NCBI GenBank assembly: GCA_944376605.1
Contig: CALWDE010000003.1
Span: forward strand, 186,001 to 250,000
Source: an uncultured Bacilli bacterium
Lineage (GTDB): Bacteria > Bacillota_I > Bacilli_A > RFN20 > CAG-826
Direction: 5' to 3'
Length of the DNA: 64,000 bases
The notes under the pieces are model-generated. The model saw only the letters and a program-made list of their open reading frames with translations, was not told the DNA's origin and ran no database searches. Each line of letters begins with the position of its first letter. Positions within the stretch are counted from its first letter, which is position 1. The translations under genes and the position numbers were made by a program. Shown in pieces: positions 4,054-58,183 of the stretch.

Positions 4054-4623
4054 TTAATCACATTTGCCTAAAAGAGAAAGCAAAAGGGAGCGAGAAGAAG
4101 AGGGAGAAGCTTTCATGCTAGAAAAGGCGTAAGGACATTCAAGAGTTTTCGCAAGACGAATGGCAGTATCTTTTTCTTTTCGTGTCGCCTTATCCTCTTT
4201 GGTAAAAATAAGAACAAAAGGAATCTGATCTTCTTGGAGCAAAGCAAGCATTGCTTCATCATCGTGATTTAATTCCCGGCGAATATCGAGAAGCAAAACC
4301 GCTCCGCTTAAGCGGGAAGAAGAACAATATTTTTCCATTAAAAGGGCAAAATCTTCCTCCTTTTCTCCCCCACCTGCCTGAAAGCCATATCCCGGTGTAT
4401 CCACAAGATAAAAGGAGTCATCGACAAGAAAGTAATTCAAAAACCTTGTTTTACCAGCTTTTTTCGCGCTGAAAGCAAGCTTATGACCTGTGAGCAAATT
4501 AATAAAGGTACTCTTCCCTACATTACTTCGTCCAAAAAGAGCAATTTCTTTTCTTTTTCTTTTTGGAGCATCGTCTCCTGTCACTGCGCTAAGCAAAAAT
4601 ATCGTATTCTTAAAGTCAACCAT
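4054..4623 (-). CDS. engB: Ribosome biogenesis GTP-binding protein EngB/YsxC
   Basis: A small TRAFAC GTPase of 189 residues needed for late 50S subunit assembly. G1 is GRSNVGKST, G3 is DTPGYGFQ, G4 is TKED (TKAD is more common) and G5 is a weak SS motif near the end. It follows lon, the order known from Bacillus, but a strong lon terminator separates them. A TACGAT -10 hexamer with an upstream TG lies exactly six bases before the ATG, which leaves no room for a Shine-Dalgarno. The gene therefore probably has its own promoter and a leaderless message. Confidence 0.93.
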   Translation of the reverse strand: MVDFKNTIFLLSAVTGDDAPKRKRKEIALFGRSNVGKSTFINLLTGHKLAFSAKKAGKTRFLNYFLVDDSFYLVDTPGYGFQAGGGEKEEDFALLMEKYCSSSRLSGAVLLLDIRRELNHDDEAMLALLQEDQIPFVLIFTKEDKATRKEKDTAIRLAKTLECPYAFSSMKASPSSSRSLLLSLLGKCD

Positions 4624-4629
4624 ACTTCT

Positions 4630-4635
4630 ATCGTA
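4630..4635 (-). promoter_or_regulatory. Extended -10 promoter giving leaderless engB mRNA
   Basis: The minus strand reads TGATACGAT, then AGAAGT, then ATG. The -10 ends six bases before the start codon, so transcription should begin at or next to the A of ATG. It sits just after the T run of the lon terminator. Confidence 0.55.
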
Positions 4636-11286: not shown

Positions 11287-13047
11287 TTATTGAGAAACCT
11301 TTTTCATGACTTCGAGAGCAAGCTCTTCTGGCAAGATTTGTGATAATTCTTCTAATGTCGCGCTTTGAATGGATTCTAAAGTTGGATAATGTTTTCTTAG
11401 CAGTTCTCTTCTTTTTGGACCAATCCCCTTAATGTCATCAAAAAGAGAATTTGTCATGCTTTTACTTCTCTTCTGGCGATGAAAAGTAATTGCGAAACGG
11501 TGAACTTCATCTTGCATCCGCATTAAAAGGAAGAAGAGAGGACTTTTGCGATCAAGAGGATACTGTTTCCCTTCTTTATCGATAATCCCTTCTGTTTCAT
11601 GCCGATTGTTTTTATATAAACCAAAAACAGGGATTGTTACATCAATCGCTTTTAAGGCTTCTAACGCGGCATGAACTTGGGTAAGACCTCCGTCTACAAG
11701 AATTAAATTAGGGTATTCTTGCTTTTCTTCCTTTAGGCGCAAATATCTTCTTTCGATAATTTCTTGCATCGAATGGTAATCATCCCCGGCATCTTCTTCG
11801 CTTAAATGAAACTTTCGATACATTCCTTTTACGCGTTCCCCATTGATAAAACAAACCATTGCCCCAACTGGGCTTGCGCCCTGCAAATGAGAGTTATCAA
11901 ATAGTTCAATTCTTTTCGGAAAAGGAAGCGATAACATTTTGCCAAGCTCTTCGAGCAACGCTTCATTATCTTCTTCTAGTCTTGCAGACATAAAATGATG
12001 GTCTAACGCTTTTCTCGCATTTAATAAAGCAATATCAAGCTGTTGTTTGATTCTTCCTTCTTTTGGTTCGATCACACGAATAGAAGGATAAATTAAAGAA
12101 AATTCTTCCTTAAAGTGAGGCAATAAAATCGCTAATTCAGCAGGATATTCTTCTTTTTGATAATACTGCTCCAATAATTCTGTAATTTGTTCATTGCTGT
12201 CACCAAAAGAGGCAACCACTTCACTTCTTTTTCCCAGTAACCTTCCACCCCGATAAGAAAGCAAAGAAAGAGCAAGATAGCCCTCTCTTTCCGCATAAGC
12301 TACTACATCACGGGAAGTAAAATCCGTAACTGCTTCCACGGCTTGATGCGAAATAGTTTGCTTAATTGCTTCTATCTTTTCTTTATAGCTTTGGGCGTCT
12401 TCATATCGCTCTTCCGCACTTGCTTCAAGCATCTTTTCTTTGAGTTTTGCTAACACTTCACTCACATCGCCTTCTAAAAAGCGACGGATGCTTTCGTACA
12501 TTCTTCGATATTCCTCATCTTCTACTTTCCTTATGCAAGGAGCAAGACACTGTCCTAAATGATAATAAAGACATGGCTTTGAGGGTAAAGTGCGGCATTT
12601 TCGTGTAGGATAAATCGAGTTTAGTAAATCAATTGTCTTATAACAGTCACCAGAATTGGGAAAAGGACCAAAATAGTAGTATTCATTTCGTTTGGTGACT
12701 CTACGGGCTATAGAAAGCGTAGCGTCGCTTCTTTTTAAAGCAATGTAAGGATAGTGACTATCGTCTTTTAGAACGATGTTATAACGCGGATAATGCGTTT
12801 GAATTAGATTCATCTCCAAGATAAAAGCTTCTTTTTCCTCATGCACCACAATAAATTCAAAATGATCCACGTGGCTTACCATTGCGGCAACTTTTCCTAC
12901 TTGGGGACGTAAAAAATACTGTGAGACACGTTTTTTTAAATTTTTTGCCTTTCCAATGTAGATAATTTGGTCATTCTCATCTTTCATGAGATAAACGCCA
13001 GGTTCATCTGGCAAAAGGGCGATAAGCCGAGCAATCTTTTCTTTCAT
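11287..13047 (-). CDS. uvrC: UvrABC excinuclease subunit C
   Basis: The nuclease subunit of nucleotide excision repair, which makes both incisions around a UvrAB-marked lesion. The 586-residue protein has an N-terminal GIY-YIG domain (GVYLMKD and YIGKAKNLKKR, residues about 16-45), a cysteine-rich region, a UVR motif near residues 195-235, an RNase H-like endonuclease domain with the ELFDNSHLQG and LILVDGG segments, and a C-terminal helix-hairpin-helix pair (GIGPKRRELLRKHYP). The ATG overlaps the mutS2 stop by four bases, so it is the second gene of a mutS2-uvrC operon and is probably translationally coupled. Confidence 0.97.
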   Translation of the reverse strand: MKEKIARLIALLPDEPGVYLMKDENDQIIYIGKAKNLKKRVSQYFLRPQVGKVAAMVSHVDHFEFIVVHEEKEAFILEMNLIQTHYPRYNIVLKDDSHYPYIALKRSDATLSIARRVTKRNEYYYFGPFPNSGDCYKTIDLLNSIYPTRKCRTLPSKPCLYYHLGQCLAPCIRKVEDEEYRRMYESIRRFLEGDVSEVLAKLKEKMLEASAEERYEDAQSYKEKIEAIKQTISHQAVEAVTDFTSRDVVAYAEREGYLALSLLSYRGGRLLGKRSEVVASFGDSNEQITELLEQYYQKEEYPAELAILLPHFKEEFSLIYPSIRVIEPKEGRIKQQLDIALLNARKALDHHFMSARLEEDNEALLEELGKMLSLPFPKRIELFDNSHLQGASPVGAMVCFINGERVKGMYRKFHLSEEDAGDDYHSMQEIIERRYLRLKEEKQEYPNLILVDGGLTQVHAALEALKAIDVTIPVFGLYKNNRHETEGIIDKEGKQYPLDRKSPLFFLLMRMQDEVHRFAITFHRQKRSKSMTNSLFDDIKGIGPKRRELLRKHYPTLESIQSATLEELSQILPEELALEVMKKVSQ

Positions 13048-15371
13048 TTTGTTCGTAAATAGGCAATGGTTGCTCCACCGCCACCCTCTCCTTCTCCAGC
13101 ACTTTCGAATTTTTCAATAAATTCTTTATGGCTCGATAAATACTCGCGCACAATGCGCGCTAAAACGCCTGATCCAAAACCGTGAATAATTCTTACTCTT
13201 GCGTAATGATTTACCAAACACTCATCTAGATATTTTTCTAGAACATGTTTCGCTTCTTCTGCCCGCATACCGATAAGATTACATTCCAGCGGCAACGAAG
13301 AATAATAAATTTTTTGATCAAGAGAAGGTAATGGATTATCTTTCTTTTCTTTCTTTTTGGGTGGAGTTTTTCGGACAAGTAGATTTTTCTCTACTTTCAT
13401 CTTTCTTCCTCCTTTTTCTCCCAAATAAACACTATCTCCTTGCATCGATAAAATTTCACCTTCTAAGAAAAGAGAAGGTGCTTCCACATAATCACCGATT
13501 TGAAAAGCAGTATCAGATGGAAGAGGAAGAGTTTCTTCTTCCGCGCTTTCTTCCATTTTCTTTTTTATCGCAATAACTTCATGTAATTTCTTTCCATCAT
13601 TTGCCTGTTTAAGCAAAGAAGAGAGTTTCTCTTCGTATTCTTCCAAAAGACGTTTTTGTTTTCTTTTTAAGTCTTCTTTAAAATCTTTTTCTTTTAAATT
13701 AAGCGAGGCTTCTTTGGAGCGAAGAACGCGTTCTTTTTCTTCTAACTCTTTTTGAAGAAGTGCAGCTTCCTTCTCTTTTTCTTCTGCTTTAAAAGTTTCT
13801 TCTCCTAATTTCTTTAAGGCAAGAGCAACACTTTTCTCTTTCTTTCCTTCTAAAACTTCTTTTGCCTGTTCAATTACCTTCTCTGGTAAGCCATAGCGTC
13901 TTGCCACAAAAAGACCATAACTTTCTCCTGGCACTCCCATTCTTAAGTGGTAGGTAGGAGAGAATGTATGGGTATCAAACGCCATGGACGCATTACTTGC
14001 TCCCGGAGAAGATAAGGCGAACGCTTTTAATCCTTCATAGTGACTTGAAACAAGAGCAAAGCAAGAAGAGGAAAGTAAATAAGAGATAACTCCCTCTCCA
14101 ATAGCCTCTCCTTCTTCAGGAGAAGTGCCGCTTCCAAGCTCATCTAGTAAAACCAAATCATTGCCTGTTAAGTGCGCTAAGATTTCTCCTACCTTTTTCA
14201 TATGGGCGCTGAAGGTAGAAAGATTTTCTGACAAAGACTGATCATCCCCAATATCGACGTATACATGTTCAAAGAAAGGCAGTTTTGCTCCATCTTTGGC
14301 AGGTAGAGGCAAAGCGCATAAAAACATATAGGCGCAGATACCTACTGTTTTTAAAGCTACTGTTTTTCCTCCAGCATTGGGACCGCTTAATAAAATAAAA
14401 GGATGCTCTTTATCAAAAGAAAAATCATTCGCGACAACATTTTTTATTGCTAAAAGAGGATGCCTAGCTCCCGGCAAAAATAACGTTTTATCTTTTGCTA
14501 AAGCAGGACAAGAACCTGCAAAAGTTTCTTTCAAAGTGCATTTAGCAAAAAGAAAATCAAAATACGCTACAGCAGAATTAAGCTCTTCTAACTCATCTTT
14601 CACTTCATAAACTTTCGAAGTTAACTCCCGTAATATCTTTCTCTCTTCTTCTTTTATTTCTTCACGGAGTTCACTCATCCTTGCTTCCATCTGTAGTAGC
14701 GATTCTGGTTCAATAAATAAAGTGCCTCCTGTTTGACTAATCCCTTGCACAAAACCTTTTACTTTACTTTTATATGCGTTTTGCACAGGTAAAACATAAT
14801 GACCGTTTCGCAAAGTTAAAGAAGAAGATGCTAAATAATCCGAATAGCGTAACAAAAGAGATTCTGCCTCTTTGCGAAGCCCGTTTTCTAAATGTAAAAA
14901 ACTCCTTCTTAAAGAAGCAAGACGAGAAGAAGCGCTATCTTTAATTTCCCCATCTTCTGATATAGAACGTTCTAAAACATTTTTTAAAAAAGGAAAATCG
15001 AGTAAAAAAGAAGTTTTTTCTTTTAAAAGAGGAATGTTGCTTTCTTCCTCCTTTTTTAAAAACTTTTTGATTTCTTCGCCATTGATCATCTCCTGATATA
15101 AAGCAAAAAGTTCACTAGGAGATGCCGTGCCTCCTTTTTGAGAGAGAGAAAACAAAGGACGTAAATCTTTACTAGGGAGAAGCGGCAAACTTCCAAACTT
15201 CGTCAAAAAAGAATCCGCTTCCGCTAAAGCGTCTAACTCTCTTTCTAAATCTCTTTCTTTCGAAAAAGGAGAAAGATGAAGAGCAAGTTCTTTTGCTCTT
15301 TCTCCTTTGCAGCAGGCTGCAAGTTTTTCCCGAATCAGAGGAAATTCTAAGATGGTTGCACTATCTTTCAT
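13044..15371 (-). CDS. mutS2: MutS2, ribosome-rescue/anti-recombination ATPase with Smr domain
   Basis: A 775-residue MutS2 homologue. It has core and clamp helices, Walker A in GPNAGGKTVALKT, Walker B LVLLDELGSGTSPEEG, a long KE-rich coiled coil at about residues 500-620, and a C-terminal Smr nuclease domain with the LIGMRAEEA and HGFGSG motifs. In Bacillus the protein splits collided ribosomes; it was earlier linked to suppression of recombination. The leader is absent: TATACT ends six bases before the ATG. It is divergent from rnhC across only 56 bases and co-transcribed with uvrC. Confidence 0.96.
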   Translation of the reverse strand: MKDSATILEFPLIREKLAACCKGERAKELALHLSPFSKERDLERELDALAEADSFLTKFGSLPLLPSKDLRPLFSLSQKGGTASPSELFALYQEMINGEEIKKFLKKEEESNIPLLKEKTSFLLDFPFLKNVLERSISEDGEIKDSASSRLASLRRSFLHLENGLRKEAESLLLRYSDYLASSSLTLRNGHYVLPVQNAYKSKVKGFVQGISQTGGTLFIEPESLLQMEARMSELREEIKEEERKILRELTSKVYEVKDELEELNSAVAYFDFLFAKCTLKETFAGSCPALAKDKTLFLPGARHPLLAIKNVVANDFSFDKEHPFILLSGPNAGGKTVALKTVGICAYMFLCALPLPAKDGAKLPFFEHVYVDIGDDQSLSENLSTFSAHMKKVGEILAHLTGNDLVLLDELGSGTSPEEGEAIGEGVISYLLSSSCFALVSSHYEGLKAFALSSPGASNASMAFDTHTFSPTYHLRMGVPGESYGLFVARRYGLPEKVIEQAKEVLEGKKEKSVALALKKLGEETFKAEEKEKEAALLQKELEEKERVLRSKEASLNLKEKDFKEDLKRKQKRLLEEYEEKLSSLLKQANDGKKLHEVIAIKKKMEESAEEETLPLPSDTAFQIGDYVEAPSLFLEGEILSMQGDSVYLGEKGGRKMKVEKNLLVRKTPPKKKEKKDNPLPSLDQKIYYSSLPLECNLIGMRAEEAKHVLEKYLDECLVNHYARVRIIHGFGSGVLARIVREYLSSHKEFIEKFESAGEGEGGGGATIAYLRTK

Positions 15372-15377
15372 TCTTTA

Positions 15378-15383
15378 AGTATA
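15378..15383 (-). promoter_or_regulatory. -10 element giving leaderless mutS2 mRNA
   Basis: The minus strand reads TATACT, then TAAAGA, then the mutS2 ATG. There is no space for a leader or a ribosome-binding site. Confidence 0.55.
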
Positions 15384-15415: not shown

Positions 15416-15421
15416 TATGAT
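15416..15421 (+). promoter_or_regulatory. -10 element giving leaderless rnhC mRNA
   Basis: The plus strand reads TATGAT, then AGAAAC, then the rnhC ATG at 15428. The spacing matches the divergent mutS2 promoter. Confidence 0.55.
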
Positions 15422-15427
15422 AGAAAC

Positions 15428-16357
15428 ATGAAAAAGCCAACCGTTCTTGTTCGAAAAATGAAAGAAGAAGAGTTACCCCTGCAAATCGCTCTTCATCTTT
15501 TGGAAAAACCAAAGACGCCTCAGCCAAGTCTCCTTTTAGAAGGAGAAGAGGAAGGCTGCACGCTGCGCTTATATCAAAAAAAGGACGGCACTTATACGCT
15601 TGTCTTTCAAGGGAAAAGAGCAGAAGAAGAGTATCACCGCTCTTTTCCAAATGAATCGCTTCCTCTTCCTAAAAATAAAAAGCCTACTTTAGATGCTTCT
15701 CTTCCTCCTTCTCTTTTCCCGCAAATCGGCTCGGATGAGGTGGGAACAGGAGATGTTTTTGGTCCGCTTATTGTCGTAGGAGCATATCTAAAAAAGGAAG
15801 ATCTTCCTACTCTCCACTCTTTCGCGATTCGGGACAGTAAAAAAGTCAGTGATGAAGAGATTCGACAAATGTTTCCTCTTCTTAAAAAAGAATTCCCCCA
15901 TAAGGTAGCGATTTTATCTCCTTTGCGTTATAACGAGATTCGTGATCGTTATAACATGAACGCAATGAAAGCAGTTCTGCATAATTATGTTCACCTTCAT
16001 TTACAAAAAGCATTTTCTCCCTCTTATCACTATATTGATCAGTTTTGTTCTCCCGATAAATATTTCTCTTATTTATCAAAGGGAAAAGAGCAAATTTTCT
16101 CAAACGTTTTCTTTGCAGTAAAAGGAGAAAGCCATTACCCCTCTGTCGCATTAGCCTCATGCCTTGCAAGAGGATATTTCTTAGAAGAAATCCAAAAGAT
16201 GAACGAGAAATATGATGTTAAATTCCCATTAGGCGCTAGTTCTGTTGTAGATGAATTTATCGAAGAGTTTGCTAAAAAATATGGCGAAGAAGAATTTAAG
16301 CAGGTTGCCAAATGCAACTTTAAGAATTTTTCTCGCGAAGAAGCGATAAAACATTAG
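15428..16357 (+). CDS. rnhC: Ribonuclease HIII
   Basis: Type 2 RNase H of 309 residues that cleaves the RNA strand of RNA-DNA hybrids and is typical of Bacilli. The N-terminal TBP-like substrate-binding domain spans about the first 90 residues. The catalytic domain starts with IGSDEVGTGDVFGPLIV, holding the first acidic pair, followed by DSKKVSD and later YIDQF and SHYPSVALAS. I chose the ATG at MKKPTVLV because a TATGAT -10 ends six bases before it; upstream in-frame codons overlap mutS2 and have no ribosome-binding site. The last 38 bases overlap the convergent rluD-like gene. Confidence 0.95.
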   Translation: MKKPTVLVRKMKEEELPLQIALHLLEKPKTPQPSLLLEGEEEGCTLRLYQKKDGTYTLVFQGKRAEEEYHRSFPNESLPLPKNKKPTLDASLPPSLFPQIGSDEVGTGDVFGPLIVVGAYLKKEDLPTLHSFAIRDSKKVSDEEIRQMFPLLKKEFPHKVAILSPLRYNEIRDRYNMNAMKAVLHNYVHLHLQKAFSPSYHYIDQFCSPDKYFSYLSKGKEQIFSNVFFAVKGESHYPSVALASCLARGYFLEEIQKMNEKYDVKFPLGASSVVDEFIEEFAKKYGEEEFKQVAKCNFKNFSREEAIKH

Positions 16358-29304: not shown

Positions 29305-30027
29305 TTAGAGCCTTAGAAGGTACATGAATATTCCGCCCGCAACACCAACATTTAAAGAATCAATATGTTCAATAGGGATGCGTAGCAGAATTTTTGCATG
29401 CGCAATCGCTTCTTGAGATACTCCATTCCCTTCATTTCCAAGCACTAAACATATTTTTTCGTTTTTATCGAATGTTTCTTCGTTAAAATAGTCGTTTACT
29501 TGTAAAGAAGTAGTAATTATTTGGTAGTTATTATTTTCTAATTCTTTAAAATCTTCTTCCCTACTTTTTTCACTTTCAATTATGTCCAAGGCAAAAATAG
29601 CACCTTGCGAGGCTTGTAGCACTTTTGCCGAATATGCTTTAGCACAATCTTTTGTGAGGATGACCGTTTTAAAGTTGAAGGCTAACGCTGTACGAAGTAA
29701 TGTTCCAACATTCCCAGGATCTTGTACCGCATCTAAATACAATATACGTTTGCTTTGCCCTCCACTATTTTTCTTTTTATGACATAAACCAATAACGCCT
29801 TCTGGTGTTTTTTGTTTCGATAAGGAAGCAAATGCTTTTGGAGAAAGCAAAATATTACGCGCTTTCGAAGCATAAGGAACAAGAGAAAAAACGATATCCA
29901 AGAGGTTATAACGTTCCGCTTCTTCAATTAAGTGATAACCTTCCACTAAAAAGATATCCCCTCTTCCATCCGCCTTTTTTCTAATTTCTTTTAAGAAAGA
30001 GTTTTGCGCACTTTCAATTTTTTCCAT
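29305..30027 (-). CDS. TrmH/SpoU-family RNA methyltransferase
   Basis: A 240-residue SPOUT methyltransferase acting on tRNA or rRNA 2'-O-ribose. It has an N-terminal substrate-binding domain (FLVEGYHLIEEA) and a SpoU core with LYLDAVQDPGNVGTLLRTA, LVLGNEGNGVS and the C-terminal PIEHIDSLNVGVAGGIFMY, all family signatures. Such a gene beside pheS is common in Bacilli. I use the start at MEKIES because AAGGA lies seven bases upstream of it; the ATG five codons earlier lacks a site. It overlaps the YgjP-like gene by 14 bases. Confidence 0.9.
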   Translation of the reverse strand: MEKIESAQNSFLKEIRKKADGRGDIFLVEGYHLIEEAERYNLLDIVFSLVPYASKARNILLSPKAFASLSKQKTPEGVIGLCHKKKNSGGQSKRILYLDAVQDPGNVGTLLRTALAFNFKTVILTKDCAKAYSAKVLQASQGAIFALDIIESEKSREEDFKELENNNYQIITTSLQVNDYFNEETFDKNEKICLVLGNEGNGVSQEAIAHAKILLRIPIEHIDSLNVGVAGGIFMYLLRL

Positions 30028-30664
30028 ACGTGTTTCCTTCATAATCTAATTGTATTAAAGCGTTACGAAACTTTGCATAATCAGGACAATATTTTAAAAG
30101 AAGTGCGTAAAATTTTTTCCCATGATTTCTTACATAATCGTGAACGAGTTCATGAAGAATAACCGAATCAATAATTTCTGGTAAATAATGGACAAGCGAT
30201 AAAGAAAAAGTTATTGTGCCAGTTTTTGCATAGTTGCTGCCATAGATAGAGCGGTACGTTCCAACGGTGATTCGGTGTGGAATTTGATCCCCCATAAGGG
30301 AAGATAAACGCGGGACTGCTTCTTCTAAATAAGATAAAAATCTCTTTTTTAGATAGGATATACGCGTAGCTTCTGACATTAATGACCAACCATTTATCTT
30401 TTCTTTTTTACCAAAAATCCAAACAAAATCACCCTTTGCAATCTTTTTTTCTAAATATTGAGGGTGATTCTTTTGAAAACGAAGATAAAGAGTACGCAAG
30501 GTATCTTCCCGTTCCTTTTTACTAGAAAAGAAAGGGACTACATAAATAAAGTTACCTTTCTCGTGATCAAAGGAGAGATGGAAGCTTCTTGTTCTTTTTC
30601 TTTCATATAAAGAAACCTTAATTTCTTCTCCTTCTATCTCTAGCACCATCGTCTTTTTCGGCAT
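30014..30664 (-). CDS. YgjP-like zinc metallopeptidase (DUF45)
   Basis: A 216-residue protein of the M48-related YgjP/DUF45 family. The zinc site is HELVHDYVRNHGKKFY, in the HExxH-N5-H-x3-F/Y arrangement near the C-terminus. No signal peptide is seen, so a cytoplasmic location is likely. The biological role of the family is unknown. I place the start at MPKKTMVL because a TATAAT ends exactly six bases before it, and an upstream in-frame ATG would lie beyond that -10. It is divergent from the DUF523 gene and heads a two-gene unit with the SpoU methyltransferase. Confidence 0.82.
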   Translation of the reverse strand: MPKKTMVLEIEGEEIKVSLYERKRTRSFHLSFDHEKGNFIYVVPFFSSKKEREDTLRTLYLRFQKNHPQYLEKKIAKGDFVWIFGKKEKINGWSLMSEATRISYLKKRFLSYLEEAVPRLSSLMGDQIPHRITVGTYRSIYGSNYAKTGTITFSLSLVHYLPEIIDSVILHELVHDYVRNHGKKFYALLLKYCPDYAKFRNALIQLDYEGNTYGKN

Positions 30665-30670
30665 AAAAAC

Positions 30671-30676
30671 ATTATA
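30671..30676 (-). promoter_or_regulatory. -10 element giving leaderless YgjP-like mRNA
   Basis: The minus strand reads TATAAT, then GTTTTT, then ATG. A perfect hexamer lies six bases from the start codon. Confidence 0.6.
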
Positions 30677-30749
30677 AACCGAATAAAAGCGGTTCACTTC
30701 TCCTCTTTTTCATGGTGAACTCTCCTCTTTTAGCCTACAATGATGCCCG

Positions 30750-31448
30750 ATGGAAAAAATATTGATTAGTGCTTGTTTGATTGGGGACCGTTGTCGATAT
30801 GATGGAGAAGCTTCTCCTTATCCTTTTGTGGAAAAATTAAAGAAGAAATATGTGTTAGTTCCCTATTGCCCAGAAATAGAAGCAGGACTTCCTGTCCCTC
30901 GCGTGCCTGCCGAAATCTTGCAGGGACAAGTGATTAATAAGGACGGGAAAAATTTAACCAAGGTGTATGAAGAGGCTGCCGCAAAATCTGTCAGTTTATG
31001 CAAACTGCTTGGTATCCATATTGCAATTTTAAAAGATGGTTCCCCCGCATGCGGTGCGCGTCTTATTCATGATGGGAAATTCTCGGGAAAGAAAATTCCC
31101 GGACTTGGTATCACCGCAAAACGTCTTATCCACGCAGGCGTTAAAGTGTACGCAGATACTGATGAACTCGCTTTCCTTTTAGCAGATAGAGACAAAGATC
31201 TTCCGGAAAGAGAAATGGAACGCTATGGCATGGTCAAAAGCGATCGGGCCAAAGAAATCTTGAAAGAGAGACAAAGAAGCGAGAGGAAGAAAGAAAGTCA
31301 TCAAAGTAAAGAAAAAGAGAAAATTTTCTCTCATCCAAGGAAAAATCACGCCAAACGTTTTTCTCATTCTTCCTTTTCTAAGAAGAAGAATTATTCACAA
31401 GGAAAAAGAAAAAATTCCTTTTCTTATAACAAGAAAAAAGCAAAGTAA
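30750..31448 (+). CDS. DUF523 (TudS-like) protein with long basic tail
   Basis: Residues 1-155 form a DUF523 domain with ISACLIGDRCRYDG, PEIEAGLPVPR and GSPACG. DUF523 includes the TudS thiouracil desulfurases, where three cysteines hold an iron-sulfur cluster; the cysteines here are placed compatibly. Residues of about 160-232 form a lysine/arginine/serine-rich, low-complexity tail that is not part of the family and may bind nucleic acid. A TACAAT lies eight bases before the ATG, so the transcript has little or no leader. It is followed within 10 bases by the ECF transporter gene. Confidence 0.82.
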   Translation: MEKILISACLIGDRCRYDGEASPYPFVEKLKKKYVLVPYCPEIEAGLPVPRVPAEILQGQVINKDGKNLTKVYEEAAAKSVSLCKLLGIHIAILKDGSPACGARLIHDGKFSGKKIPGLGITAKRLIHAGVKVYADTDELAFLLADRDKDLPEREMERYGMVKSDRAKEILKERQRSERKKESHQSKEKEKIFSHPRKNHAKRFSHSSFSKKKNYSQGKRKNSFSYNKKKAK

Positions 31449-31457
31449 TTCCTTTTT

Positions 31458-31983
31458 ATGAAAAAGATTTCTTCTACTGCGCGTCTTTCTTTTTCTGTGA
31501 AGCATCTCACTCTTGCGGCGATTTTAGCTGCCTTGTCTGTTGTTTTTGGACTTTTCTTAGCAATTTCTTATCCAGGAGGAGGATACTTCTCTTTTGGTGA
31601 CGTCTTTTTGTTTTTAGGAGCCTTCTTACTCCCTTTACCTGAGTCTCTTCTCACTTCCCTTGTAGCAGGCATTCTTTTAGATTCTCTGACGGGTTCTTTT
31701 CTTTATTTGCCTTTTACTGTTGTGGCGAAACTGCTTTTAACACTTCCCTTATCGCTTGCTTTTACTTTTGGGAAAGAAAAGAAAATACTTGCCTTTTTTG
31801 CAAGTATCTTAGGGACACTTCTCCAGTGTGCGACATATTTTATTGCCTACTATCTCTATTTAGGGCTTGGAGGATGTATCAACACTCTTTTTTGATTTGA
31901 TACAAGGAGGAGGATGTCTTCTTTTGGCGTTCCTTTTCTATTTGCCCTTGAAGCGAATTCCTTTTCTTAATCCTCGTCCTTAA
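31458..31983 (+). CDS. ECF transporter S component, interrupted by a one-base frameshift
   Basis: A membrane substrate-binding component of an energy-coupling-factor vitamin transporter. The first 145 codons encode about five membrane helices, with an N-terminal LTLAAILAALSVV typical of S components and FGDVFLFLGAFLLP. A TGA at 31893 falls inside a run of six Ts (31888-31893). With one T fewer, the reading continues as TLFDLIQGG, the conserved end motif of S components, through a last helix to a TAA at 31981, giving about 175 residues. So the gene is either truncated, slip-corrected, or affected by an indel or sequence error. The vitamin cannot be named. Confidence 0.75.
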
Positions 31984-32149
31984 ACTCCCCATAAAAAGAG
32001 AGCAAAGAGATTGTAAAAAAGATAACAAAAAGGATAGCGCAAGTAAGAGCGCCAATCATCATCACTTCCCCCTCTCCAAAAAGAAATAAAGCAAGAGCAA
32101 GTAAGAAGAATATGCCACTCGAATAAGTGAAGACAACTGCCTTTTTCAT
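31967..32149 (-). CDS. Small two-helix membrane protein
   Basis: A 60-residue protein of two hydrophobic helices (about residues 5-24 and 30-52) with an acidic C-terminal end (YGEFKDED). I do not recognise a family. The start is set at MKKAVVF because a TATAAT ends six bases before it, immediately after the msmK terminator. The 3' end overlaps the extended frame of the convergent ECF gene. Confidence 0.55.
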   Translation of the reverse strand: MKKAVVFTYSSGIFFLLALALFLFGEGEVMMIGALTCAILFVIFFTISLLSFYGEFKDED

Positions 32150-32155
32150 GCTTTC

Positions 32156-32161
32156 ATTATA
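32156..32161 (-). promoter_or_regulatory. -10 element giving leaderless mRNA of the small membrane protein
   Basis: The minus strand reads TATAAT, then GAAAGC, then ATG. Confidence 0.5.
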
Positions 32162-36043: not shown

Positions 36044-36049
36044 TATAAT
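36044..36049 (+). promoter_or_regulatory. -10 element giving leaderless ABC exporter mRNA
   Basis: The plus strand reads TATAAT, then GAAGTT, then ATG at 36056. Confidence 0.6.
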
Positions 36050-36055
36050 GAAGTT

Positions 36056-37852
36056 ATGAAGCGCCTCTTCTTAACATGCAAAAAACTTACAGAAGGTAGA
36101 CATCTCGCTTATCTTTTGCAGCTTTTTATTCAAATTGTTCAAGTGTTTTTTTCTACCTTTTCCATCTTCTTAACTAAAGTCCTCATTGATGCTATTCAAG
36201 GAATGACTGAATTAGAAAAAGCCGATGCGTTCGAAAGTTTTGTCATTTTTCTCATCACGGGAGGACGCGGAAATGAATTTTTGATGGAGAACAGAATCAC
36301 TGTGCTCCCTGTGGCGCTTGTTATTTCTACCTTAATTACAGCTTTACTTTCTTTTGCCCGCATGAGTTTACGTAGTTACGCAATCGCTTATATGAATGGG
36401 GCTATGCAGCGCACTTTGTTTACCCATCTAACTGCAGTGGACTATCCTTTTTATAAGACACACGATGGCGGAGATTTAATTCAAACTTGCACACGCGATG
36501 TTGATGTTTTACGCCGCTTTATGATTGGTGATGTTAGTAACTTCAACTACTCTTTTTGGACTCTCCTATTTGTCTCAGCCATTTTATTTAATATGTCTTA
36601 TGAACTCGCCTTAGCGTGTCTTGGCCTTCTTCCTGTCATGCTGCTTTATAGTTTCTTCCTTATGAAAAAGGTAAGAAGACTCTACCGTGCAACGGATGAT
36701 TCAGAAGGAAGAATGACAGAAAGAATCAATGAGAATTTAGCGAGTGTGCGTTTAGTTCGCGCTTATGGAAGTGAGAAAAAAGAATGCGAAAATTTTGAGC
36801 GTTATCTTGATGATTACGCGGAGAAATTCACCAAATGGAGAAGGTGGTCTTCTTTCTTTTTTGCTTCGGGTGATATTTTTGCTTTTGGCAGTAATGCTTT
36901 AGCCTTAGGAGTAGGAGTTTACTTAGCCTATTTAGGAAAAGTTAACGCGTCGACGATTGTTGTGTCCTTCCTTTTCGTTAATATGATTGTTTGGCCACTT
37001 CGTCAATGCGCTACAAGTTTATCCAATATGGGACAATATCTTGCTTCTAGCGACCGTTTAAGAGTGATCTTAGACGCTCAAGAAGAAGATAGAGAATCAG
37101 GAATTACAGACGAGATTCGCGGTGATATTACTTTTGAGCATGTTTCTTTCCATTATGAAAATGATGAGAAAAACGCGCTTAATGACGTTTCTTTCCATAT
37201 TCCTGCAGGTTCCACTGTGGCGATTATGGGCAAGACGGGATCAGGAAAAAGTACGCTATCTCTTCTTCTTACCCGCTTATATGAGCCCACAAGCGGACAA
37301 ATTCTTTTAGACGATAAGCCGCTTTCTTCCTATCAGAAGAAACATTTAAGAAAAGAAATTGTTCCTGTTTTACAAGATCCTTTTCTTTTTAGTAAAACGA
37401 TTGAAGAAAATATTCTTTTAGCGAGAAAAGAGGCAAGTAGAGAAGAGTTATATCAAGCGGCAAGAACCGCTTCCATTGATGATACCATCCGCTCTCTTAA
37501 AGAAGGTTATGCTACGCCAGTTGGTGAAAAGGGAATGTCTTTATCAGGCGGACAAAAGCAAAGAGTAGCCATGGCAAGAACGCTGATTACTGACGCCCAT
37601 GTCTACATTTTTGATGATTCTCTTTCTGCTGTGGATACAGAAACTGACCGAAAAATTAGAGCAAATTTAAGAAAAAAGAAAGGCGATTCTACCATCTTTA
37701 TTATCACTCACCGCGTTGCTACCGCCCAAGACGCTGATCTTATTCTTGTTTTAGAAGACGGAAAGTTAACTGAAATGGGAACACACGAAGAGTTATTAGA
37801 AAAACCAGGTTTATATCAGCGTATCGCGGAAATTCAAAGGAGGATGGCTTAA
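36056..37852 (+). CDS. ABC exporter half-transporter, subunit A (degenerate ATP site)
   Basis: A 598-residue type IV ABC half-exporter: six membrane helices in the first 330 residues, then a nucleotide-binding domain with Walker A GKTGSGKST, signature LSGGQKQR and Walker B VYIFDDS. The residue after Walker B is aspartate instead of the catalytic glutamate, as in the non-canonical half of heterodimeric exporters. It is followed one base later by its partner. The ATG lies six bases after a TATAAT. The substrate is unknown; multidrug, lipid or peptide export are family possibilities. Confidence 0.92.
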   Translation: MKRLFLTCKKLTEGRHLAYLLQLFIQIVQVFFSTFSIFLTKVLIDAIQGMTELEKADAFESFVIFLITGGRGNEFLMENRITVLPVALVISTLITALLSFARMSLRSYAIAYMNGAMQRTLFTHLTAVDYPFYKTHDGGDLIQTCTRDVDVLRRFMIGDVSNFNYSFWTLLFVSAILFNMSYELALACLGLLPVMLLYSFFLMKKVRRLYRATDDSEGRMTERINENLASVRLVRAYGSEKKECENFERYLDDYAEKFTKWRRWSSFFFASGDIFAFGSNALALGVGVYLAYLGKVNASTIVVSFLFVNMIVWPLRQCATSLSNMGQYLASSDRLRVILDAQEEDRESGITDEIRGDITFEHVSFHYENDEKNALNDVSFHIPAGSTVAIMGKTGSGKSTLSLLLTRLYEPTSGQILLDDKPLSSYQKKHLRKEIVPVLQDPFLFSKTIEENILLARKEASREELYQAARTASIDDTIRSLKEGYATPVGEKGMSLSGGQKQRVAMARTLITDAHVYIFDDSLSAVDTETDRKIRANLRKKKGDSTIFIITHRVATAQDADLILVLEDGKLTEMGTHEELLEKPGLYQRIAEIQRRMA

Positions 37853-45590: not shown

Positions 45591-45708
45591 ATTTTTACTC
45601 CTTTTTCCTTTTTCCTATGCAAAGTCTACCAGCAAACAAGCACTTCGCGCATGGAAAAAGAATAAAAGGGCGGTTAGAATGCCTTCTAGTGAGAAAAAAG
45701 GAGTCAAA

Positions 45709-46914
45709 ATGATTAAGGTTATAGCAGTCAATGCCGGTTCATCCTCTATTAAATACAAGTTATACGAAATGCCAGAAGAAAAAGTCATTGCCTCTGGTAT
45801 GGTAGAAAGAATTGGTCACGAAGATGCCATCTTTAAATTTAAAGGAGGAAAGGAAGATAAAAAAGATATCCTCCCTATTTTAGATCACGCAAAAGGAGTG
45901 GAACTGATTCTCAAAGCGTTAGAAAGCTCGGGAGTGGTTGCCTCTTTAAAAGAAATTGCTGTTGTCGGGCACCGCGTGGTACAAGGCGGAAAATATTTTG
46001 CAAAAAGTGCCTATTTTACGGAAGAAAATGAAGAGAAAATTCGCGAATTAATCCCTTTAGATCCTCTGCACGCGCCTGCCCATTTACTTGGTTTCCACGC
46101 TTTTAAAGAAGCTCTTCCTGAAGCCAAGGCCATTGCCGTATTCGATACCGCCTTCCACCGCACCATGGAAGAGGAAGATAGCATCTTCCCTATTCCAGAA
46201 GAATGGACAGAAAAATATGATTGCCGCCGCTATGGCGCGCATGGCACTTCCCATCAATATTTAGCGGAAAAGGCGATTCACGACTATTTCCATGATAAAA
46301 AGGACACAAGAATTATTACTTGTCATATTGGTTCTGGTGCATCTTTAGCGGCAATACGCGATGGAAAATGCGTGGCAACATCGATGGGCCTTACTCCTTT
46401 AGGAGGAGTTATGATGGGCACTCGCTCCGGTGATATTGACCCAAGTGTATTAGACTACATCAGTACTTGCACAGGAAAAGACGTTCACGAAATCTATGAA
46501 ATTTTAAATAGAGAATCTGGTCTTCTTGGTGTTTCTGGCGGACTTTCCAATGATACAAGAGACATTGAAGAGGCTATGAAAAATGGCAATCCAAAGGCGC
46601 TTCGCGCGGCGAACTTATTTGCACGAAGAATCGCCGATTATATCGGACAATATTTTGTTCGTCTTGGCGGAGTAGATATGATTATCTTCAGCGCTGGGAT
46701 CGGGGAAAATAGCGAAACCTTCCGTGAACTTATCTTAAAAAGATGTCAGGAAGCACTACACCTAGAAATTGACTGGGAAAAGAATATTAGCTATAACCGC
46801 AAAGAGGGTCTTATCAGTAAACCGTCTTCGCAAATCCAAGTAGCCATTATTCCTACCGATGAAGAGGTTATGATTGCCCGTGACTGCTACAAAGCTTGGG
46901 AGGGTACCCTTTAA
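45709..46914 (+). CDS. ackA: Acetate kinase
   Basis: A 401-residue cytoplasmic kinase that makes ATP from acetyl-phosphate, giving acetate. Motifs seen are VNAGSSSIKYKLY at the N-terminus, VGHRVVQGG, FDTAFHRTM, GAHGTSHQY, THIGSGASL-like CHIGSGASLAAI and FSAGIGENS. I chose the start at MIKVIAVNAG because AAAGGAG lies six bases upstream. No pta gene is in the window. The nrnA gene begins at its stop codon (TAATG). Confidence 0.96.
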   Translation: MIKVIAVNAGSSSIKYKLYEMPEEKVIASGMVERIGHEDAIFKFKGGKEDKKDILPILDHAKGVELILKALESSGVVASLKEIAVVGHRVVQGGKYFAKSAYFTEENEEKIRELIPLDPLHAPAHLLGFHAFKEALPEAKAIAVFDTAFHRTMEEEDSIFPIPEEWTEKYDCRRYGAHGTSHQYLAEKAIHDYFHDKKDTRIITCHIGSGASLAAIRDGKCVATSMGLTPLGGVMMGTRSGDIDPSVLDYISTCTGKDVHEIYEILNRESGLLGVSGGLSNDTRDIEEAMKNGNPKALRAANLFARRIADYIGQYFVRLGGVDMIIFSAGIGENSETFRELILKRCQEALHLEIDWEKNISYNRKEGLISKPSSQIQVAIIPTDEEVMIARDCYKAWEGTL

Positions 46915-47977: not shown

Positions 47978-47983
47978 TATAAT
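47978..47983 (+). promoter_or_regulatory. -10 element giving leaderless dnaE mRNA
   Basis: The plus strand reads TATAAT, then TTAGCG, then ATG at 47990. No Shine-Dalgarno sequence can fit. Confidence 0.6.
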
Positions 47984-47989
47984 TTAGCG

Positions 47990-50900
47990 ATGAGTTTTAT
48001 CGCTTTAAATACGTATAGCGGCTTTACTTACTTACAGAGTGCCTTTACCCCAGAAACCCTTATCGACTACACAAAGAAGATGGGCTACTCTGCTTGTGCT
48101 TTATGTGATTTAAACACTCTTGCAGGATATGCGCCTTTTACACATAGCTGCTTGAAGAAAGGGATAAAACCTATTTACGGCACGCATTTTTCCCTTTTTC
48201 CTGAGTTATGCCTATTTGTTTTAAATGAAAAAGGCTATCAAAACTTACTTCTTTTAGAAGAAAAAAGAGTTAATCTCACTTTAAAAGAAGAAGATTTTTA
48301 TCGGCATAGTGAAGGTTTATACGCTGTCATTTCTTTAAAAGAAAAAATTAGTTATCCTTCTTCTTTTTGGGAGAAGTTAGCGAAAGCTTATTCGCATCTT
48401 TCTTTAGGATTACCAAAAAGCAAAGATGAAAATTTTCTGCGTTATTGGCGGGATTTTGCAAAAAGCCATTCCCTAGACATTATGGCTTTTCCTGCGATTC
48501 GCTACCCCAAAAAAGAGGATGCGGTAAGTCTTCTTATTTTAAATGCTATTCGTAGCAGAGAAACTCTTACTGTTCAAAAGGCGGAAGGAGAAGAATTTTT
48601 CCCTAGTTTAGAAGAGCTAAAAAAATATTACTTAGAGGAAGAAATTGAAAAAACAAATGAGGTTTTGCAAAGTTCTTCTTTCTCCTACATCCAAAAAAGA
48701 GGAAGTTTACTCCGCTTCCCTGAAGCAAAAGAGATGGGAGCGGATGCTTACTTAAGCGCTTTAGCGCATCAAAAATTAAAAGAAAAAGGGAAAGATAATC
48801 CTGCCTATCTAGCGCGCTTAGAAGAAGAGCTTTCCATTATTGCCAAAATGGGATATTCCGATTATTTCCTTATTGTTGCCGATTATGTATCTTTTGCCAA
48901 AAAGAGAGGAATTTTGGTAGGACCAGGAAGAGGTTCTGGAGCAGGGTCTCTTGTTTCTTATGCGCTTGGAATTGTTCAGCCCGATCCTTTAGAGCACGGC
49001 CTTCTTTTTGAACGCTTTTTAAATCCAGAAAGACAAAGTATGCCCGATATTGACGTGGACTTTGAAGATACTAGAAGAGAAGAAGTTGTCGCCTATCTTT
49101 CAGAAAAGTATCAAAAAGAGAGATGCGCGCATGTTCTTACCACGCAAACAATTGGAGCAAAAGAAGCTTTGCGTGATATTGGCAGAGTCTATTCGATCCC
49201 TGTTCATGACATTAATTTATTATGTGGAAGCATCTTAAATGAAAAAATCTCTTTGCGCGAAGATTACAAAACAAATCCCATCTTCCGTGATTATGTAAAA
49301 AGCGACACTTATTATCTCAATATTGTCTCTTTAGCAGCCAAAATAGAAGGACTTCCCCGACAAGCTGGTTTACATGCTGCTGGGATTCTTCTCAATGAAA
49401 CCCCTTTAGCAAAAGTACTTCCTATTGAACTCTCTCCTTCTGAAGGACAAATTGCGCAGCTAGAAAAAGATTATTTAGAAGAACAAGGATTTTTAAAAAT
49501 GGACCTTCTGGGACTACGAAATTTGTCCCTTATTCGTTCTATTTTAGAAAGCATAGAAGAGGAAGAAGGCGTCCATTTAACTTATGAAGAGTTACCAATC
49601 CGCGATAAAGAAGCTTTGTCTTTGATTGAAAAAGGCGAGACGATGGGACTATTTCAGCTCGAAAGTCCAGGTATGAAAAACGCGATTCGCCTTGTAAGGC
49701 CAGAACGCTTTGAAGATGTTGCTGCGATTGAAGCCCTTTTCCGTCCTGGACCAATGGAACAAATCTCCACCTATGCAAAGCGGAAGGCAGGAGAAGAGAA
49801 AACTACTTATTTATTCCCGGAATTAGAACCGATTTTAAAAGAAACATACGGCATTATCGTCTATCAAGAACAGATTATGGAAATATGCCGAAGTTTGGCA
49901 GGGATGGAGTATGGAGAAGCGGATTTATTCCGCCGGGCAATTTCTAAAAAAGACCACGAAAAATTACTTTCCTTGAAGCCCCGGTTTGTAGAAGCGGTCA
50001 TCAAAAAAGGAAAGAAAGAGAAAGAAGCTGAAGCTTTGTATGCCTTAATTGAGCGCTTCGCAAACTACGGTTTTAATAAATCACACGCGGTATCTTATGC
50101 CTATTTAACTTGCCAAATGGCTTATTTAAAAGCGCACTTCCCTAAAGAATTTTATTCTTGCATCTTAGCTACGATGAATAGCGAAGAAAAGAAGTTCCGT
50201 AATACCTTATCCGAACTAAAAAGAAGGGGAGTAAAGCTTCTGTTACCTTCGCTTAACGCTTCTGCTTTCTCTTTTCACGCAGAAAAAGATGGTATCCGTT
50301 CTCCTTTGTCCTTTATCAAAGGAATTCCTTCCTCTTTGACGCTCTCTCTTACCGAAGAAAGACTTGAAAAGGGTGAATATCTCGACTTTTTTGATTTTGC
50401 AAAAAGAGCAAAAGGTTATGGTTTAACTCTTCCCTATCTTATCCGTCTTATCGACGGAGGCGCTTGCGACTGTTTCCACAAAAATAGGGCAACTTTACGC
50501 GCTACTGCCGCTAGTGCTCTCCATTATGCCGAAATGTTTGTGGGGCAAGATGGCCAAACAGTCTTTTTAAACCTTGCCATTGAAAAGCCTTCTTATCAGG
50601 AAAGAGAAGAGGACTATTTAGTAAAGCTTGAGGCGGAGAAAGAAGCGCTTGGCATTATGCTATCTGGCTCTCCTTTATCTGCCTTCCGTGCAACCATTCA
50701 AAAGCGCGGCGCAATAGCTCTTTCTGATTTAGATGATTCCCCCTCCCCTGCTTGGACATACGGCATGATTAAAAGCGTAGAAGCTAGAACGACAAAAAAC
50801 GGCAGACAAATGGCTTTTGTAGAACTGATGGATGAAACATCAGAAGTGCGTTTTACTCTTTGGGGAGAAACTTATTCTCGTTATTACTCTTATCTAAAAG

Positions 50901-51007
50901 TAGATCGACCTATTTTAGCCTTAACTAGACGCAACTTTTATCAAAAAAAGCAAAACTATATCGTGGAACAAATCATTCCTTTATCGGAAGAAGGGAGCAA
51001 AAGATGA
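47990..51007 (+). CDS. dnaE: DNA polymerase III alpha subunit (DnaE type)
   Basis: A 1005-residue C-family replicative polymerase. The catalytic aspartates lie in MPDIDVDFED, with GPGRGSGAGSLVSYALGI, FGFNKSHAVSYA-type NYGFNKSHAVSYAYL, helix-hairpin-helix and a C-terminal OB-fold. The N-terminal PHP domain is degenerate: where active domains read HxHSxYS and TDH, this protein reads ALNTYSGF and CDLNTLAG, so no metal site remains. Its message is probably leaderless. The gene overlaps polA by four bases. Confidence 0.94.
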   Translation: MSFIALNTYSGFTYLQSAFTPETLIDYTKKMGYSACALCDLNTLAGYAPFTHSCLKKGIKPIYGTHFSLFPELCLFVLNEKGYQNLLLLEEKRVNLTLKEEDFYRHSEGLYAVISLKEKISYPSSFWEKLAKAYSHLSLGLPKSKDENFLRYWRDFAKSHSLDIMAFPAIRYPKKEDAVSLLILNAIRSRETLTVQKAEGEEFFPSLEELKKYYLEEEIEKTNEVLQSSSFSYIQKRGSLLRFPEAKEMGADAYLSALAHQKLKEKGKDNPAYLARLEEELSIIAKMGYSDYFLIVADYVSFAKKRGILVGPGRGSGAGSLVSYALGIVQPDPLEHGLLFERFLNPERQSMPDIDVDFEDTRREEVVAYLSEKYQKERCAHVLTTQTIGAKEALRDIGRVYSIPVHDINLLCGSILNEKISLREDYKTNPIFRDYVKSDTYYLNIVSLAAKIEGLPRQAGLHAAGILLNETPLAKVLPIELSPSEGQIAQLEKDYLEEQGFLKMDLLGLRNLSLIRSILESIEEEEGVHLTYEELPIRDKEALSLIEKGETMGLFQLESPGMKNAIRLVRPERFEDVAAIEALFRPGPMEQISTYAKRKAGEEKTTYLFPELEPILKETYGIIVYQEQIMEICRSLAGMEYGEADLFRRAISKKDHEKLLSLKPRFVEAVIKKGKKEKEAEALYALIERFANYGFNKSHAVSYAYLTCQMAYLKAHFPKEFYSCILATMNSEEKKFRNTLSELKRRGVKLLLPSLNASAFSFHAEKDGIRSPLSFIKGIPSSLTLSLTEERLEKGEYLDFFDFAKRAKGYGLTLPYLIRLIDGGACDCFHKNRATLRATAASALHYAEMFVGQDGQTVFLNLAIEKPSYQEREEDYLVKLEAEKEALGIMLSGSPLSAFRATIQKRGAIALSDLDDSPSPAWTYGMIKSVEARTTKNGRQMAFVELMDETSEVRFTLWGETYSRYYSYLKVDRPILALTRRNFYQKKQNYIVEQIIPLSEEGSKR

Positions 51008-55873: not shown

Positions 55874-55874
<1 letters not shown>
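54960..55874 (-). CDS. dnaI: Primosomal protein DnaI, helicase loader
   Basis: A 304-residue AAA+ ATPase that loads the replicative helicase. The N-terminal domain has a cysteine/histidine cluster (CAHCKNVNACQNSIPH) of the DnaI zinc-binding type. The ATPase has Walker A IKGALGTGKSF, Walker B LLVLDDFGAE and sensor FTSRESY. I chose the start at MKNEKSV because its ATG overlaps the dnaB stop (TGATG) and GGGAGG lies just upstream. It is paired with dnaB, as in Bacillus. Confidence 0.92.

Positions 55875-58183
<2,309 letters not shown>

Follow-up and report, generated by a model that had tools for sequence, protein, structure and literature searches.

Leaderless genes have been predicted in Firmicutes, mainly in Lactobacillales and Mycoplasma (PMC3160421), and in Streptococcus pneumoniae leaderless mRNA has been mapped at 70 operons (9%), with its translation shown by reporter (PMC6212727). 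Leaderless genes are also established in Deinococcus, and in Deinococcus-Thermus a -10 motif, TANNNT, lies 6-7 bases before the ORF (PMC12340547). A leaderless class in Bacilli, put forward as notable in a sequence-only reading of the DNA analysed here, therefore has precedents in Lactobacillales, Mycoplasma and S. pneumoniae (PMC3160421; PMC6212727).

The DNA analysed here is a 64,000-nt stretch (the window) from an uncultured member of the Bacilli, whose genome comprises 1.18 Mb in 15 contigs and is 97% complete. This genome has a GC content of 38%, and GC varies from 38% to 60% among the sampled genomes placed in one genus. Like S. pneumoniae D39 (PMC6212727), the organism belongs to class Bacilli and combines Shine-Dalgarno-led genes with genes of the leaderless type; those of D39 were mapped by sequencing and reporter-tested, whereas ours are predicted from sequence. 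About a fifth of first-in-unit genes appear to belong to the class examined here. The counts are 34 of 182 among first-like genes of the own genome and 54 of 234 (23%) among divergently transcribed genes of the genus samples, a larger share than the 9% of operons in D39. The TA-like genes of Lactobacillales and Mycoplasma likewise have a -10 box right before the start codon, with a TG extension in some low-GC genomes; the present lineage spans 38-60% GC and is not among the lineages named in the passages considered (PMC3160421). Deinococcus-Thermus shares the box 6-7 bases from the ORF (PMC12340547) and, in D. radiodurans MP1 as analysed here, the pyrimidine at -1, but the Deinococcus class covers about a third of genes with the looser TANNNT, whereas the box in our lineage is TATAAT-like and is carried by about a tenth of all genes. 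This is thus a new, well-populated lineage of a known leaderless type, with a high share of transcription units and strong gene-by-gene conservation.

Promoter-like hexamers beside start codons in the window

The sequence-only reading had listed seven genes in which a -10 hexamer is followed by six bases and then ATG, and all seven layouts are present on re-reading of the window. The gene dnaE (DNA polymerase III alpha; 47990..51007, + strand; NCBIfam DnaE/polc) is preceded by TATAAT at 47978..47983 (TATAAT-TTAGCG-ATG, 47978-47992), and its mRNA is predicted to begin at the ATG. On the minus strand, the engB/ysxC GTPase gene (4054..4623; TIGR03598 above cut-off) has TACGAT at 4630..4635 (TACGAT-AGAAGT-ATG; ATG at 4623), and mutS2 (13044..15371; TIGR01069 above cut-off) has TATACT at 15378..15383 (TATACT-TAAAGA-ATG; ATG at 15371). 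Divergent from mutS2, rnhC (ribonuclease HIII; 15428..16357, +; TIGR00716 above cut-off) follows TATGAT at 15416..15421 (TATGAT-AGAAAC-ATG). TATAAT itself precedes the remaining three: a YgjP-like metallopeptidase gene (30014..30664, -; PF01863; box at 30671..30676, TATAAT-GTTTTT-ATG, ATG at 30664), a 60-aa membrane protein gene read as an ORF with a homologue in L218 at E 3e-5 (31967..32149, -; box at 32156..32161, TATAAT-GAAAGC-ATG, ATG at 32149) and an MsbA-like ABC exporter gene (36056..37852, +; NCBIfam; box at 36044..36049, TATAAT-GAAGTT-ATG). The eighth case in that reading, TACAAT eight bases before the ATG of a DUF523-like gene, is also in place (30736..30741, +; ATG at 30750). NCBIfam confirmed the names DnaE, MutS2, RNase HIII, EngB/YsxC and MsbA-like exporter, and Pfam the name YgjP-like; for the DUF523-like gene NCBIfam gave no match, leaving that name unconfirmed.

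Gene starts were picked by a simple ORF rule, and hexamers within one mismatch of TATAAT, with A2 and T6 invariant, were counted at distances 0-45. Such hexamers lie at distance 6 in 6 of the 48 genes in the window and in 0-2 genes at every other distance. Two further cases were absent from the sequence-only list. The dnaB helicase-loader ORF (55874-57130, -), which has a DnaB_2 domain, carries TATGAT at 57126..57131, 7 nt before its second in-frame ATG (57118); orthologues show TATCAT-6-ATG at the matching position, and the second ATG is probably the true start. A methyltransferase ORF at 29305-30042 (-) reads TACAAT-6-ATG. In its orthologues the start lies 3-5 codons further in, in several of them with a Shine-Dalgarno sequence upstream, and we therefore take this case as a probable false positive. 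Separately, ackA (45679-46914, +) probably starts about 10 codons past its first ATG, since three orthologues start about 10 codons downstream, behind a Shine-Dalgarno sequence. The 15-mer found at dnaE, TATAATTTAGCGATG, also occurs in L017 (G000:C6:140556-140570), where just 12 codons follow before a stop.

Spacing, initiator base and position in the transcription unit

A genome-wide plot of hexamer-to-start distance, proposed in the sequence-only reading as a check for an excess at six bases, gave a clear excess. Across 394 kb sampled from the own genome (323 genes, simple ORF caller), the hexamer lies at distance 6 in 24 genes, on a background of about 2.4 per position, and 7 bases before the first ATG in another 9; distances 6 and 7 together account for 33 genes, where 4.9 are expected (p ~6e-17). 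Pooling eight genus members (1031 genes) yielded 62 genes at 6, 31 at 7 and 19 at 8, or 112 over these three distances. The spacing of six therefore holds as a peak but not as a fixed value, the peak having a shoulder at 7-9.

Most of the genus members sampled have the peak. Four of them (G011, G018, G032 and G007) show it as in the own genome, two (G018 and G032) at 60% GC, where TATAAT is rare by chance; in a further member, G028, the excess is weak. On their own, counts of the reversed pattern control poorly for chance when a genome is AT-rich, and TATAAT at a spacing of 12 was therefore counted as well. Exact whole-genome counts over 37 genus genomes were 778 for TATAATN6ATG and 189 for TATAATN12ATG, with an excess of the former in 36 of the 37. 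Over 24 genomes from seven other families of the order, the corresponding counts were 1169 and 985. No spacing peak was found in dnaE-region samples of cultured Bacilli, and none in AT-rich relatives such as G040. Samples L201-L205 (G173), from another genus of the own genome's family, have their peak at 7 instead of 6 (8 vs 3 of 82 genes), and in a survey of the class Bacilli the family f25 (G157, G189, G196 and G202) is strongly enriched for TATAATN6ATG, for example 79 vs 22.

Transcription usually initiates at a purine, with a pyrimidine at -1. Among the eight genus members, a pyrimidine precedes the ATG in 58 of 62 six-base genes, compared with 504 of 919 others (p ~1e-10), which at this spacing places +1 on the A of the ATG. 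The preference is absent for spacings 7 and 8 in the pooled members, so those transcripts may have a leader one or two bases long. In the same pooled genomes, class genes are first in their unit in 96 of 107 cases, compared with 502 of 878 others (p 4e-12), and 3.6% of them have a Shine-Dalgarno sequence 5-12 bases ahead of the start, compared with 61% of the others.

In composition profile, the hexamers of the class match those of ordinary upstream promoters from these genomes, including the variants TATACT, TAAAAT and TACAAT. A TGn extension is found in 24 of 112 class promoters vs 11 of 141 ordinary upstream ones; a general extended -10 in the class was tested and is weak. For a -35 hexamer, sought at 16-18 bases, the best TTGACA match is weak in both sets, averaging 2.70 vs 2.51 at a shifted position for the class and 2.70 vs 2.40 for standard promoters. 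Under the same pipeline, TANNNT in D. radiodurans MP1 peaks at 6 (8 of 115; background 0.83), all 8 genes at that spacing having a pyrimidine at -1, and E. coli K-12 shows no peak.

By NCBIfam and Pfam, the class includes genes for replication, repair, tRNA and rRNA modification, SmpB, glycosyltransferases and transporters. It is scattered over unrelated housekeeping functions and coexists with Shine-Dalgarno-led genes; a shared function or regulon was sought, and these annotations reveal no single pathway.

Conservation of the layout among orthologues

Orthologue comparisons indicate that, within the genus, individual genes inherit the layout. The -10 hexamer lies 6 (19), 7 (3) or 9 (3) bases before the start in all 25 dnaE orthologues, while spacer and upstream sequence vary freely, and a Shine-Dalgarno sequence is present in 0 of the 25. 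Outside the genus, cultured Bacilli included, dnaE is mostly Shine-Dalgarno-led. Similarly, mutS2 has the hexamer at 6-7 nt in 23 of 28 orthologues, and engB has a one-mismatch hexamer at 6-8 nt in 14 of 27 genus orthologues. In one sub-clade (L286-L288, L290, L292, L293 and L300) a Shine-Dalgarno leader replaces the adjacent -10 box of engB, so the adjacent-box layout is not obligatory; the difference may record a switch from leaderless to led, or the reverse.

For the other five genes, the layout is kept in part of the orthologues: rnhC has TAAAAT-6, TACAAT-7 and TACAAT-8; the YgjP-like gene has the hexamer at 7-8 nt in two orthologues and a Shine-Dalgarno leader in one; three DUF523-like orthologues read TAAAAT-7-ATG; ABC exporter orthologues show TATAAT-7 and CATAAT-6, with two outside the class; and in G011 the homologue of the small membrane protein reads TAAAAT-6-ATG. 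The genes tig and valS mostly keep their Shine-Dalgarno leaders among orthologues. Taken over reciprocal best hits, in which pairs are not independent, the probability of belonging to the class is 0.65 when the orthologue belongs to it and 0.07 otherwise.

Proposed mechanism and alternatives

The initiator base, unit position, conservation and control organisms all support the leaderless reading first proposed from the window. We consider it highly likely that these genes have housekeeping-sigma promoters that start transcription at the start codon or within about 0-3 bases of it. The promoter would be of the ordinary housekeeping-sigma type, in most cases consisting of just the -10 box and in fewer having TGn as well. 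With the six-base spacing, RNA polymerase would begin at the A of the start codon, and with spacings of 7-9 it would begin about one to three bases upstream; the resulting mRNA would lack a Shine-Dalgarno sequence, and its 5'-terminal AUG is presumably recognised directly by ribosomes loaded with initiator tRNA, as is known for leaderless mRNAs elsewhere. It is from the position of the box, its motif, the initiator base, the gene context and the conservation, all observed features of the class, that we infer where the transcripts begin and that a 5'-terminal AUG is translated.

Chance placement of TATAAT near ATG in AT-rich intergenic DNA could be entertained on the few cases in the window alone and the 38% GC of the genome, but the own-genome plot, with 24 genes against 2.4 per position, refutes it; as the peak also persists at 60% GC and is absent from AT-rich relatives such as G040 and from cultured Bacilli, we give chance practically no weight. 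The surroundings of the box bear on a different possibility, that the hexamer is no promoter but an AU-rich translation-initiation signal inside a normal leader. Some bacteria do use AU-rich leaders without a Shine-Dalgarno sequence. Such a signal, however, would have to coexist with a positional profile equal to that of upstream promoters (TATACT, TAAAAT and TACAAT variants included), the first-in-unit position of class genes, a -1 pyrimidine at spacing 6 only, and a box set in GC-rich surroundings in the 60% GC genomes, and we judge it very improbable.

The hexamer could also be a genuine promoter while translation starts further inside the gene, at a later codon that has a Shine-Dalgarno sequence to itself, in which case the adjacent ATG would merely be a misannotated start. 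This seems to be true once in the window, for the methyltransferase look-alike at 29305-30042. An internal start would leave the distance unfixed, so the sharp peak at 6 speaks against it, as do the -1 pyrimidine locked to the ATG and the alignment of dnaE N-termini, which runs from the ATG onwards in relatives within the genus and the order; as a general account it is hardly credible. Within the preferred reading, in which transcription starts at or just before the start codon, leaderlessness might further be a maintained regulatory class instead of a neutral by-product, under joint control through the state of initiation factors or ribosomes. Most genes retain their state even between distant orthologues (for DnaE, down to about 45% identity), and replication, repair, ribosome-assembly and envelope genes are all found in the class; we regard the idea as unlikely.

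A large uncultured lineage of Bacilli, ranging from 38 to 60% GC, thus joins those that appear to use leaderless mRNAs substantially. In genomes of this kind, start codons may be wrongly assigned by gene finders that expect a Shine-Dalgarno sequence, a risk suggested by the dnaB gene. Furthermore, switches between leaderless and Shine-Dalgarno-led states, such as that of engB in one sub-clade, may offer a natural series on the loss or gain of leaders.
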